From the NCBI RefSeq assembly GCF_026341515.1, contig NZ_JAPEOK010000001.1, positions 744,001 through 808,000 on the forward strand: DNA of 64,000 nt. Reading direction: 5' to 3'. How positions within the stretch are numbered: position 1 is the first letter of the stretch; each line of letters begins with the position of its first letter. Positions 54,852 through 64,000 of this stretch are shown one piece after another. The translations under genes and the position numbers were made by a program. The DNA is from Streptomyces sp. NBC_00878. GTDB taxonomy: Bacteria > Actinomycetota > Actinomycetes > Streptomycetales > Streptomycetaceae. The notes below the pieces were generated by a model, which was not told where the DNA came from, searched no databases, and saw nothing but the letters and a program-made list of their open reading frames with translations.

Positions 54852-57800
54852 TCAGACGCGCTTGAGCCTCAGCGTCACCAGTTCGAACGGGCGCAGTTTC
54901 AGCGTGACCCGGCTGCCGTCCCGTTCCGGCACGGCGGCCTCGGCCAAGGGCCGTTCCAGCAGGTCCGTCACCGTGACCGTGTCGATCTCGAAGCCCGCCG
55001 TGAGTGTGGCCCGGCTGCGGCCGCCGCGTGACTCGTGGAAGCGGACGATCACATCGCCGCTGCCGTCGTCGGCGAGCTTCACCGCGGTGACCACGACCGC
55101 GTCCTGGGCGACGGTCACCAGCGGCGCGACCTCCGAGCCCCCGCCGACGACCTTCCGCGCGGGCAGGTTGATCCGCCAGCCCTCGCGCACCGCGTCGCCG
55201 ATCCCGGCACCGGGCACCAGCGCGTGCCGGAAGCGGTGGACGCCCTGGTCGGTCTCGGGGTCGGGGAACCGCGGGGCGCGCAGCAGCGAGACGCGGACCG
55301 TGGTGGTCGTCCCGCCGTCGTCGCGCACCGCACGCGTCACGTCGTGGCCGTACGTCGAGTCGTTGACGACCGCGACGCCCCAGCCGGGCTCCTCCATGTG
55401 GACGAACCGGTGGTTGCAGGCCTCGAACTTGGCCGCCTCCCAGGACGTGTTGGTGTGCGTCGGCCGGAAGAAGTGCCCGAACTGCGTCTCGGACGCGTAC
55501 CGCTCGGCGTGCACATCGAGCGGGAACGCCAGCTTCAGGAACTTCTCCGTCTCGTGCCAGTCGACCTCGGTGTCGATGTCGAGCCGCCACTCCCCCGGCG
55601 CGAGCGACAGCACCTGCGTGACCTTCGACTCGCCGAAGGTCCGTACGATCCGGACCGAGACGCCGTCCTCACCGGGGGCGACCTCGTCGGCGTCGACCAG
55701 GTCGGTGACCGTGTTCCGGTAGAACTCGTCGACGTCCCAGGCGTCCCACATGTTGGGGAAGTCGGGGTGGATCTGGAGCAGGTTCGCCGCCCGGCCGGGC
55801 GCGAGGGTCTCGCGGTCCGCGGCGAGGTCGAACGCGGAGACCACGAGTCCGCGTGCGTCGATCTCGATCCGCAGCCGTCCGTTGTCCAGCACATAGCCGC
55901 CGTCCGAGCGCGGCACGAGCGTGCACTCGCCCCCGACGACCGGCGTCCGCGCACCGCCGGCGGGCACCCCGTCGCGGGTGTGCGGCGCCGAGTTGAAGAC
56001 GAGGGCGGTCGTCCCCTCACCGGCCAGCGCGCGCTGGGCGGAGCCGATGATGCCGTTCAGCTCCTCGGCGACGGCCTCGTACGTCCTACGGGCCTCGCGG
56101 TGCACCCAGGCGATGGAGGAGCCGGGCAGGATGTCGTGGAACTGGTGGAGCAGCACCGTCTTCCAGAGGCGGTCCAACTCCTCGTACGGGTAGGGGAATT
56201 CGGTGCGTACGGCTGCGGTCGCCGCCCACAGTTCGGCCTCGCGCAGGAGGTGTTCGCTGCGCCGGTTGCCCTGCTTGGTCTTGGCCTGGCTGGTGAGCGT
56301 GGCGCGGTGCAGTTCGAGGTACAACTCGCCGACCCACACGGGTGCGTTGGGGTACTCGGCCTCGGCCTTCTCGAAGAACGTCTCCGGGGTCTCCCAGACC
56401 ACGGTCGCCGAGCCTTCTAGGTTGCGGAGCCGGGCCGCCTTGGCGACCATCTCGCGGGTCGTGCCGCCCCCGCCGTCGCCCCAGCCGGTGGGCGCGAGGG
56501 AGTGCCGGGCGACGCCCTTGTCCTTGAAGTTCCGCGCCGCGTGGGCGATTTCACCGCCCTTCATGGAGCAGTTGTACGTGTCCACGGGCGGGAAGTGCGT
56601 GAAGATCCGGGTGCCGTCGATGCCCTCCCACTGGAAGGTGTGGTGCGGGAACTTGTTGGTCTGGGACCACGAGATCTTCTGTGTCAGCAGCCACTTGGAG
56701 CCGGCCGCCTTGATGATCTGGGGCAGTCCGGCGGCGAAGCCGAAGGTGTCGGGCAGCCACGCCTCGTCGTTCTCGATGCCGAACTCGTCGAGGAAGAACC
56801 GTTTGCCGTGCACGAACTGACGGGCCATCGCCTCGGAGCCCGGCATGTTGGTGTCCGACTCGACCCACATGCCGCCGGCCGGAACGAACCGTCCGTCGGC
56901 CACCGCCTTCTTCACCCGGGCCCACACCTCGGGCCGGTGGTCCTTCACCCAGGCCCACTGCTGGGCCTGTGACATGGCGAAGATGAAGTCCGGCTCGTCC
57001 TCAAGGAGGGCCGTCATGTTGGAGGTGGTTCTGGCGACCTTGCGGACGGTCTCGCGCAGCGGCCACAGCCACGCCGAGTCGATGTGGGCGTGGCCGATGG
57101 CGCTGATGCGGTGGGCGGAGGGGACGGCGGGCGTGGCCAGCACCCCTTCCAGGTGTGAGCGGGCCGCGGCCGCCGTGTCGCCCACGTTCTGGAGGTCGAC
57201 GGCGTCGAGGGCCTTCTCGATCGCCCGCAGGATGTCCCAGCGGCGTGGGGAGTCCACCGGCAGCTCGGCCATCAGCTCGCCGAGTACCTCCAGGTCGATG
57301 ACGAGCTGCCACACCGTCTCGTCGAGGACGGCGAGGTCCATGCGTTCCAGCTTGTACTGCGGTTCGCTGCCCGCCGTCTCCTTGTCGCCCAACTGCGTGG
57401 GCACGAAGGGGTGGTAGTCCATGACGACGGGGTTGGACGCGGCCTCGACGTGCAGCCGCACCTCCTCGCCGCCCTCGACTGGCGCGCCGATCCGCACCCA
57501 CTGGTTGCGCGGGTTCAGGCCCTTCACCGGGGTGCCGTCGGGCCGGTAGACGAGGCCCTCGCACTGGAAGCCGGGCATGTTCTCGTCGAAGCCGAGGTCG
57601 AGGATCGCCTCGACGGTCTTCCCGGCCCACTCCTGGGGCACGGTCCCGGTCACCCGGAACCAGCTGGTGCCCCACGGAGCACCCCACCGCGCGCCCGCCT
57701 CGATCGGCTCGGGTGCGGCCGCCAGCCCCTCGGCGACCGGCACCGGCTCACCGGGCGCGTGCCACACCGCCACTTCCAGCGGTACGGACTCGGGGTACAC

Positions 57801-57869
57801 GGCGGGTCGGATGCGCTCGTCGAGGACACGCTTGAGGCGGGCTTCGACCAGGTTGCGGTCGTCATGCAT
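54852..57869 (-). CDS. GH38 alpha-mannosidase
   Basis: A 1005-residue intracellular (no signal peptide) alpha-mannosidase. The catalytic domain starts near residue 260 with SAIGHAHIDSAWLWPLRETVRK (zinc His/Asp) and has the nucleophile aspartate in GGMWVESDTNMPGSEAM; zinc and structural blocks follow (LPDTFGFAAGLPQI, FQWEGIDGTRIFTHFPP). The N-terminal 250 residues are a beta domain and the C-terminal 450 residues are beta-sandwich, as in family 38. It is the last gene of the leftward glycan operon and would remove alpha-linked mannose from imported N-glycans. Confidence 0.93.
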   Translation of the reverse strand: MHDDRNLVEARLKRVLDERIRPAVYPESVPLEVAVWHAPGEPVPVAEGLAAAPEPIEAGARWGAPWGTSWFRVTGTVPQEWAGKTVEAILDLGFDENMPGFQCEGLVYRPDGTPVKGLNPRNQWVRIGAPVEGGEEVRLHVEAASNPVVMDYHPFVPTQLGDKETAGSEPQYKLERMDLAVLDETVWQLVIDLEVLGELMAELPVDSPRRWDILRAIEKALDAVDLQNVGDTAAAARSHLEGVLATPAVPSAHRISAIGHAHIDSAWLWPLRETVRKVARTTSNMTALLEDEPDFIFAMSQAQQWAWVKDHRPEVWARVKKAVADGRFVPAGGMWVESDTNMPGSEAMARQFVHGKRFFLDEFGIENDEAWLPDTFGFAAGLPQIIKAAGSKWLLTQKISWSQTNKFPHHTFQWEGIDGTRIFTHFPPVDTYNCSMKGGEIAHAARNFKDKGVARHSLAPTGWGDGGGGTTREMVAKAARLRNLEGSATVVWETPETFFEKAEAEYPNAPVWVGELYLELHRATLTSQAKTKQGNRRSEHLLREAELWAATAAVRTEFPYPYEELDRLWKTVLLHQFHDILPGSSIAWVHREARRTYEAVAEELNGIIGSAQRALAGEGTTALVFNSAPHTRDGVPAGGARTPVVGGECTLVPRSDGGYVLDNGRLRIEIDARGLVVSAFDLAADRETLAPGRAANLLQIHPDFPNMWDAWDVDEFYRNTVTDLVDADEVAPGEDGVSVRIVRTFGESKVTQVLSLAPGEWRLDIDTEVDWHETEKFLKLAFPLDVHAERYASETQFGHFFRPTHTNTSWEAAKFEACNHRFVHMEEPGWGVAVVNDSTYGHDVTRAVRDDGGTTTTVRVSLLRAPRFPDPETDQGVHRFRHALVPGAGIGDAVREGWRINLPARKVVGGGSEVAPLVTVAQDAVVVTAVKLADDGSGDVIVRFHESRGGRSRATLTAGFEIDTVTVTDLLERPLAEAAVPERDGSRVTLKLRPFELVTLRLKRV

Positions 57870-57957
57870 GCGGGGTGCTCCGTAACTCCGTTGTGCGGGT
57901 TGCTACTCGGTGTCGGTGATCAGCACCGGCTCTCGGTGCTGACCGCCAGGTCGGCGG
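57870..57957 (-). terminator. Hairpin between GH85 and GH38 genes
   Basis: An 8-bp stem (57921-57928 with 57934-57941) in the 88-bp gap. It could attenuate transcription into the GH38 gene or stabilise the upstream mRNA. Confidence 0.5.
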
Positions 57958-63226: not shown

Positions 63227-63231
63227 GTCGG

Positions 63232-64000
63232 TCAGCCCTGCTGCTTGAGCAGCCGGTCGCACGCCTTGACAGCGTTGTCGAGAGCCACCTTGGGGCTCTC
63301 CTTGCCCTGCAGCGCCTTGGCGACGGAGTTCCGCAGCTCGGTCTTCATCTGCTCGCTGAACAGGACCGGCGTGTAATTGACCGCGTTCTTCAGGGACTTG
63401 GCGGCGGCGATCCGGACGCGGGTCTCGTCCGTGCCGTCCTCCGTGGTGAAGTACGGGTCGTCCAGCGAACCGGCGGTGCTCGGGAAGATCGCGACCTTCT
63501 TGGCGAACGACATCTGGTTCTGCGCGTCGGTGACGTAGTGCGCGAAGGCGACCGCCGCGGGCGTCCGCTTGGTCCGGGCGTTGACCATCACACCCATCAC
63601 GTACATGTTGACCTTGCCGGTGCTGGTGATCTGGTCGGTGATACCGATGTTCTTGTAGAGGTTCGGCGCCTGCTTCTTGAAGTTGCCGAGGTCCAGGGCG
63701 CTGCCGGGGTTCATGGCGACGGCCTCGGTCAGGAACTTCTTGCCGGACGACTCGGGGGTCGCGGTCAGCGCCTGCGAGTCGAGCGCCTTGGCGTCGTACA
63801 ACTCCTTGTACTTGGTGAGGAGTTCGACTCCCTTGGCATCATTGAAGGCAAAGCCGGTGCCTTCCTTGTTCATCAGCTCGACGCCGTACCGCCCGAAGTC
63901 CTCGATGGTGGGCACATTGGCGAGGGTGGCGACCTTGCCGTCACTCTTCTCCGCCAACTCCAGGGCGTCGGCGAACAGTTCGTCGTACGTCTTCGGGGGC
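63232..64000 (-). CDS. Extracellular solute-binding protein (CUT1), 5' end outside window
   Basis: C-terminal part of a family 1 binding protein for an oligosaccharide importer; the frame remains open to the window's right edge (KTYDELFADALELAEKSDGKV), so the ATG at 63957 is internal. About 256 residues are visible, including LKNAVNYTPVLFSEQMKTELRNSVAKALQGKESPKVALDNAVKACDRLL. It is the most upstream visible gene of the glycan operon; its ligand is probably a released N-glycan (context). Confidence 0.85.
   Translation of the reverse strand, partial: PPKTYDELFADALELAEKSDGKVATLANVPTIEDFGRYGVELMNKEGTGFAFNDAKGVELLTKYKELYDAKALDSQALTATPESSGKKFLTEAVAMNPGSALDLGNFKKQAPNLYKNIGITDQITSTGKVNMYVMGVMVNARTKRTPAAVAFAHYVTDAQNQMSFAKKVAIFPSTAGSLDDPYFTTEDGTDETRVRIAAAKSLKNAVNYTPVLFSEQMKTELRNSVAKALQGKESPKVALDNAVKACDRLLKQQG

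Follow-up and report, generated by a model that had tools for sequence, protein, structure and literature searches.

A 64,000-nucleotide stretch of the 11.1 Mb genome of Streptomyces sp. NBC_00878, referred to here as the window (G000:C1:744001-808000), was analysed with a focus on a minus-strand gene unit at 54852-64000. Open reading frames (ORFs) and family matches placed in this unit, in order of reading, the solute-binding protein (SBP) and two permeases of a CUT1 importer followed by enzymes of the glycoside hydrolase (GH) families 5, 85 and 38 (Table 1), which agrees in every named gene, in strand and in coordinates with a preliminary description of this DNA. The likely GTG start of permease 2 at 62258 overlaps the stop of permease 1, the likely permease 1 start at 63226 lies 5 bp past the SBP stop, and the other gaps are 105 bp (permease-GH5), 32 bp (GH5-GH85) and 88 bp (GH85-GH38), a spacing that fits a single transcript. 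The window ends before the SBP start is reached, and the promoter and the LacI regulator also lie beyond base 64000. The unit is very probably an N-glycan-core operon, predicted from its genes to provide for release, import and internal dismantling of the glycan.

The GH5 protein was assigned to a subfamily by similarity ranking against solved chains rather than by a tree. Its best solved relatives were two chains of ScGH5_18 (E 5.6e-207 and 4.4e-206; 691 bits), an enzyme from what we take to be a soil actinomycete, followed by 9y4v, three BlGH5_18 chains, the exo-beta-1,4-mannosidase 6gvb and two BlMan5B chains. In all, nine solved chains matched over the full length at E <= 2e-103 (five named GH5_18, two BlMan5B, one exo-beta-1,4-mannosidase and one 'glycosyl hydrolase'), while the tenth-ranked relative, an endo-beta-mannanase, gave a partial match at E 3.4e-21. 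Both glutamates that we take to be catalytic were kept, E145 (GNEVNQ) and E260 (LQEVGA), the 7lr8 chain having alanine in the E145 column. A Pfam profile search returned no match for the protein at E <= 1e-3, and GH5_18 had one match in its own genome. As a predicted GH5_18 member the protein is expected to split mannose from N-acetylglucosamine (GlcNAc) at Man-beta-1,4-GlcNAc. On this ranking a plain mannanase or glucanase was rejected, the grouping that the preliminary description had itself named as speaking against its reading. That the protein is an ordinary mannan-degrading enzyme of a manno-oligosaccharide operon, as GH5 membership and the partial endo-mannanase match might suggest, is highly improbable given the nine full-length matches and the presence of GH85 and GH38 in the same operon.

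The GH85 protein scored 344 bits against 2vtf, which we take to be the oligomannose enzyme Endo-A, and 236 bits against 2w91 (Endo D by its record name), and it had one match in its own genome. Its N-x-E pair, previously given as N217/E219, was found as described but becomes N219/E221 when numbered from the TTG at 59979, the earlier count having started two codons further on. By eye, the GH85 N-terminus resembles a twin-arginine signal and no signal was seen at the N-termini of GH5 and GH38, in agreement with the preliminary description. In the GH38 protein four GH38 domains scored over cut-off (Glyco_hydro_38N at 317 bits), and among solved chains the alpha-mannosidase 7ufs reached 852 bits, with Ams1 chains at no more than 575 and Golgi mannosidase II at no more than 31. 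The HxHxD motif (HAHIDSAW) and the catalytic aspartate region (WLPDTFG) were both present, their roles being presumed here.

An SBP_bac_1 lipoprotein together with two permeases of the MalF/MalG type, each carrying an EAA motif, identify the importer as CUT1. No ATPase gene was found in the operon; outside it the genome has two ATPases of the UgpC/MsiK class that pass the curated cut-off, and the ATPase of the operon importer is probably of the MsiK type and encoded elsewhere. The sequence of events proposed earlier, in which N-glycans are cut outside, imported and dismantled inside, follows from the nearest relatives of GH5_18, GH85 and GH38 and is well supported by this homology. Secreted GH85 would break the bond joining the two GlcNAc residues of the N-glycan core, the lipoprotein and the two permeases would import Man(n)GlcNAc, powered by a shared MsiK-type ATPase, and in the cytoplasm GH38 would strip alpha-mannose and GH5_18 split the last Man-beta-1,4-GlcNAc.

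Conservation was evaluated in 80 loci, which are close relatives since they represent the best 80 of 523 confirmed GH5 matches, all from Streptomyces and up to 94% identical. Gene presence was scored by tblastn at an identity of at least 45%. LacI, the SBP and both permeases adjoin GH5_18 in 80/80 of these loci, which had been chosen by GH5_18, and the association of the operon genes is therefore not a matter of chance. Among the 68 loci with 10 kb on both sides, GH38 was present in 68 and GH85 in 54. A substitute endoglycosidase inside the GH85-less operons was considered and rejected, the GH5_18-GH38 gap being just 32-422 bp in 15/18 and the other three loci (L009, L063, L082) ending too early; GH18 endoglycosidases elsewhere were not searched for. 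In five loci (L018, L035, L037, L048 and L053) identity is 56-61% for LacI, 57-62% for the SBP and 65-74% for the permeases, with GH5_18 at 83-86% and GH38 at 80-83%, and the imported glycan may differ in these.

The region between LacI and the SBP contains two TAAWGCGCWTTA sites, mostly 24 bp apart. Taking the 80 loci and the window together, a site with at most one mismatch was found in 77/81 such regions and two sites with at most two mismatches in 78/81. The 80 loci span 1.60 Mb and hold 123 sites with at most one mismatch, every one of them in a LacI/SBP region; 19 were scored 'in SBP' since the SBP ORF match extends upstream. Within the genome of the window, TAANGCGCNTTA occurs exactly at two places, the operon promoter (C1:808707) and C2:531234. 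The divergent LacI would control the operon via the two operators. At the second place (L093, G000:C2:531234) an exact TAATGCGCATTA site stands just upstream of another LacI-family gene.

The operon is flanked on one side by a GH20/GH29 cassette. The GH20 protein scored 590 bits against 8hvb ('Lacto-N-biosidase'), which we take to be the Streptomyces sp. 142 enzyme, and 419 and 400 bits against 4h04 and 9fyn, both lacto-N-biosidases (LNBases), as compared with 113 bits for the best hexosaminidase. All seven active-site residues of LnbB named in PMC9016705 (the PMC articles are cited throughout from excerpts) are kept, namely Asp320, Glu321, His263, Glu216, Asn259, Tyr419 and Asp467, as mapped by hand on the alignment with an offset of 19, the catalytic ones among them being common to other GH20 enzymes too. 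By sequence, the GH20 is thus predicted to be a lacto-N-biosidase. The GH29 protein scored 385 bits against 4zrx (in two stretches), 322 bits against 3ues ('Alpha-1,3/4-fucosidase') and 82.4 bits against 6gn6; chains from 6gn6 downward are presumably GH29-A. It is nearer to the alpha-1,3/4-fucosidases than to GH29-A and is predicted to be of the GH29-B type. Both proteins have signal-like N-termini by eye. An NCBIfam search gave no name above cut-off for GH20 or GH29, and a search of the genome for lacto-N-biose phosphorylase (PF09508) gave no match but was uninformative, as control genomes also gave none.

Downstream of GH38 lie a minus-strand operon predicted to serve L-fucose and, divergent from it, a plus-strand GntR gene. 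The genes are those expected of import and oxidation by the predicted roles listed in Table 1; the oxidative fucose pathway ends in pyruvate and lactate. The secreted GH20 and GH29 would act outside, and the freed fucose would be imported and oxidised. In the regions between GntR and the fucose SBP, GTGGTCNGA was found in 47/47 and TGGTCNGACCA in 43/47, with GTGGTCNGA occurring elsewhere at 0.03 per kb.

Table 1. Features of the locus in window coordinates; positions marked L002 belong to the locus record that runs past the window end.
Feature	Position	Strand	Evidence and remarks
CUT1 solute-binding lipoprotein, C-terminal part	63232..64000	-	SBP_bac_1 152.8 bits on whole ORF; lipobox LSAC (by eye); 80/80 loci
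Complete SBP gene	L002:9233-10516 (~window 63232-64515)	-	Extends beyond window end
ABC permease 1 (MalF/UgpA type)	62255..63226	-	BPD_transp_1; EAASVDGA motif; ORF from 63262, likely start 63226
ABC permease 2 (MalG/UgpE type)	61350..62258	-	BPD_transp_1; EAAYVDGAN motif; likely GTG start 62258
GH5_18 beta-mannosidase (predicted)	60012..61244	-	7lr7 ScGH5_18 E 5.6e-207; Glu 145 and 260 kept
GH85 endo-beta-N-acetylglucosaminidase, predicted secreted	57958..59979	-	Glyco_hydro_85 278 bits; 2vtf E 1.9e-101; N219/E221
GH38 alpha-mannosidase, no signal peptide seen	54852..57869	-	Four GH38 domains; 7ufs E 4.5e-255; HAHIDSAW and WLPDTFG motifs
LacI regulator	L002:10757-11848 (~window 64756-65847)	+	Upstream of SBP, divergent from it
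GH29 fucosidase (predicted)	L002:11979-13607	-	Beyond LacI gene and window end
GH20 (predicted lacto-N-biosidase)	L002:13663-15591	-	Precedes GH29 in reading direction, 55 bp gap
GntR/FCD regulator, probably of fucose operon	53952..54713	+	GntR and FCD domains
GntR-type operator sites	53875..53947	.	GTGGTCTGA on minus strand at 53875; palindrome GTGGTCCGACCAC at 53935-53947
Sugar-binding protein, putative L-fucose ABC importer	52741..53826	-	Peripla_BP_4 180 bits; fucose from neighbours
Double ABC ATPase, putative fucose importer	51242..52762	-	ABC_tran, two stretches
Permease, putative fucose importer	50215..51249	-	BPD_transp_2 136 bits
L-fuconate dehydratase (FucD)	48816..50165	-	1yey L-fuconate dehydratase E 3e-208
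Short-chain dehydrogenase/reductase (SDR), probable 2-keto-3-deoxy-L-fuconate dehydrogenase	48064..48819	-	adh_short_C2 197 bits; role from position
Aldo-keto reductase (AKR), probable L-fucose dehydrogenase	47048..48064	-	Aldo_ket_red 161 bits; role from position
RhaM-type sugar mutarotase	46737..47051	-	rhaM 65 bits
Amidohydrolase (AMH), probable L-fuconolactonase	45871..46707	-	Amidohydro_2 167 bits; role from position

In the same 68 loci GH29 and GH20 were each found in 30 (29 with both), GntR in 48 and the fucose SBP in 46. The fucose SBP was present in 29/30 of the GH29-bearing loci vs 17/38 of the others (Fisher p 3.4e-6, relatedness ignored), and it undercounts fucose genes, since L007 and L061 lack it yet keep SDR and AKR genes downstream and L075 keeps FucD, SDR, AKR and AMH. 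When relatedness was allowed for with a tree of 69 rows, GH29 and GH20 co-varied: of 10 independent pairs, 9.3 differed in both genes in the same direction and none in opposite directions (median p 0.004). For GH29 and GH85 the corresponding figures were 2.6 against 0.1 of 10 pairs (p 0.5). In L073 the SBP is 51% identical and the permeases 87-90%, with GH85 and GH29/GH20 missing, a possible swap or partial loss.

The modules were also followed in a sample of 246 genomes of the genus not selected by GH5_18. GH5_18 (E <= 1e-100) was present in 136/246, 121 with the main type (best E <= 1e-171) and 15 with a second type only (1.4e-140 to 7e-123). LNBase-like GH20 was present in 58/246, and 38 of these, the window genome counted, are at least 71% identical to the window's. 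By hand count, a main-type GH5_18 stands no more than 20 kb away in 25 of the 38; in 3 the two genes fall on separate contigs of a fragmented assembly, and in 10 there is none close by. All ten were inspected; L142 and L143 end too early, which leaves eight readable cases (L136-L141, L144 and L145). In 8/8 of these the GH20 gene lies 0.1-6.3 kb from the GntR/fucose operon or is parted from it by GH38 alone, with GH29 present in seven (not in L141), and no LacI, SBP, permeases, GH5_18 or GH85 was found in between at an identity of at least 45%. GH38 is kept in between in L140, L141 retains remnants of GH38 (8019-8294) and LacI (8500-8652), as after a deletion, and 2.6-6 kb of other sequence intervenes in L136, L137, L144 and L145. 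In the genome of L145 GH5_18 occurs elsewhere, 99 and ~500 kb away, and its N-glycan operon is thus displaced and not absent. The L045 and L050 operons lack GH85, and in both genomes a lone GH85 of 75-76% identity is found next to GntR and the fucose operon (L146, L147). The modules look separable, as GH20 stays near the fucose operon without the N-glycan operon, and the simplest account is one of two modules, the N-glycan operon being nested in a Lewis/fucose one, with each sometimes lost or moved.

Both modules together would handle fucosylated type-1-chain (Lewis-a-like) glycans, the N-glycan core and the freed fucose. Whether the two serve one substrate is an evenly balanced matter. The N-glycan operon and the Lewis/fucose module could instead be mere neighbours, the outer module acting on free or O-linked type-1 glycans, which we consider a serious possibility though one falling somewhat short of even. 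Separate regulators and operator types, and the occurrence of each module without the other, are in keeping with this. It is countered by the closeness of 25 of the 38 LNBase orthologues to a main-type GH5_18, at most 20 kb in genomes that measure 8-12.4 Mb, and by the occurrence in two genomes of GH85 alone beside the fucose operon with the rest of the operon elsewhere; shared descent could still explain both of these points. A single regulon for all modules was rejected, the LacI site with at most one mismatch being confined to LacI/SBP in the 80 loci, and GntR control of GH20/GH29 was rejected because the upstream site was found in few of the 25 usable loci.

Several results weigh against the N-glycan operon as described or against its joint action with the Lewis/fucose module. 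GH85 is absent from 14/68 of the full-flank loci, and 11/15 of the genomes of GH85-less loci that were searched are without any GH85, so that the importer can exist without the GH85 releaser. The best solved relative of the SBP scored 102 bits, and the SBP has no close solved relative. Genome-wide, the LacI operator pattern with at most one mismatch occurred at 19 places vs 45 for the reversed control and is not enriched; weak LacI sites therefore carry no meaning. Upstream of GH20 the looser TGGTCNGA was found in the window and in only 5/25 usable loci (L006, L008 and L010 at the window's position, L034 and L071 at other positions) and the stricter GTGGTCNGA in the window and 3/25 (L006, L008 and L010), 7 of the 32 GH20 loci having been excluded as cut off upstream. 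The association of GH29 with the fucose SBP was not significant after correction for kinship on the tree (4.1 of 10 pairs agreeing and 0.1 opposing, p 0.125), which also favours the modules being mere neighbours; the pair test thus gives good support to the GH20/GH29 cassette and makes the fucose link no more than suggestive. Neither a core alpha-1,3-fucosidase nor a xylosidase was seen among the locus genes read, the whole genome not having been searched.

A further question is which N-glycans would be used. That the operon is mainly for oligomannose or fungal mannoprotein and not for complex glycans is a possibility to which we give about one third of our belief; it is suggested by the nearness of GH85 to 2vtf, presumably an oligomannose enzyme, and by the other mannosidases of the genome, namely a second GH38, five GH92 and one GH125. 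One of the GH92 alpha-mannosidases (G000:C1:821540-824023; L107:6541-9024) lies ~8 kb past the GH20 gene, has a signal by eye and may trim mannose outside. Within the operon, however, no GH92 or GH125 match was found (GH76 was not searched for), and the genes next to it have to do with fucose and type-1 chains, which are absent from typical fungal mannan. Judging from these neighbours, fucosylated type-1-chain glycans are a better candidate than fungal mannoprotein, and the target of the locus is perhaps complex N-glycans with Lewis-a, for instance plant ones. The fullest version, a composite locus for Lewis-a complex N-glycans, likely plant ones, in which GH29-B would take off alpha-1,4-fucose, LNBase would take off Gal-beta-1,3-GlcNAc as a disaccharide, GH85 would next free the trimmed core and the fucose would be imported and oxidised, is put forward as an unlikely reading. 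For the plant-type reading GH85 would have to accept the plant-type core.

N-glycan-core GH5_18 loci of gut and soil Actinobacteria (ScGH5_18, BlGH5_18) were reportedly described by Higgins 2021 and are a direct precedent for the operon. The present locus is like these in its GH5_18 (691 bits to ScGH5_18), GH38, CUT1 importer and predicted cytoplasmic dismantling of the core, and apparently unlike them in that the operon includes GH85 and is flanked by a lacto-N-biosidase/fucosidase cassette on one side and a fucose operon on the other. The N-glycan importer and core beta-mannosidase of Streptococcus pneumoniae differ from those found here. In S. pneumoniae with Endo-D, surface trimming likewise takes place before GH85 acts and is followed by import (PMC5215778, PMC10154615). 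A Cutibacterium acnes GH38/GH5_18 locus with ABC importer genes (PMC6160142) is similar in that its GH38 and GH5_18 are without signal peptides. The C. acnes 266 locus contains GH18 and a GH20 predicted to be an exo-hexosaminidase, with a signal-less GH29 elsewhere and GH85 at another place in some strains (PMC6160142), whereas here the operon includes GH85 and is adjoined by a GH20 of the LNBase type and a fucosidase of the GH29-B type that is predicted to be secreted. The preliminary description had seen in the operon a bifidobacterial logic transferred to a soil actinomycete; the logic is supported but is not new in such an organism, since a ScGH5_18 structure exists and 51 Streptomyces GH5_18 sequences were counted in the excerpt of PMC6160142.

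The two activities predicted for the GH20/GH29 cassette are the same as those of Streptomyces sp. 142 (PMC8091460). Lewis-a antennae are present on plant complex N-glycans (PMC9522356, PMC10154615), and gut Bacteroides growing on plant N-glycans use GH29 enzymes for removing Lewis-a fucose from complex N-glycans, as is proposed here, together with a PNGase, a GH2 galactosidase, a GH3 xylosidase and a core alpha-1,3-fucosidase (PMC9522356), none of which was seen among the genes read here. According to the excerpt of a 2023 review, GH18 or GH85 enzymes active on plant N-glycans had not yet been described (PMC10154615), and in that of PMC11475409 GH5_18 and GH85 in Streptomyces are named only in a CAZy family table. 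The open-licence literature surveyed, outside which most subscription papers lie, yielded no account of an LNBase gene or a fucose operon next to an N-glycan operon in Streptomyces. The N-glycan-core operon is accordingly a known kind of system, and its nested Lewis/fucose setting appears new.

N-glycan use has mostly been studied in gut and skin bacteria, and GH5_18 relatives in 136/246 genomes suggest that harvesting of glycoprotein sugars by soil bacteria is frequent. The nested Lewis/fucose module offers a concrete substrate hypothesis with testable enzymes, and the locus may supply tools for plant N-glycan trimming, including an answer as to whether any GH85 acts on plant N-glycans.

Other arrangements of GH5_18 were also observed. 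The second type (53-55% identical) occurs near a diverged SBP and two permeases (L133:2582-10424, L134, L135), in L133 with GH3-like and kinase-like genes, by eye, in the vicinity. In the genomes of L072 and L078 a second GH5_18 copy (76%) directly adjoins a GH85 that is 28% identical to the window's (L110, L111), a different pair of releaser and core enzyme.

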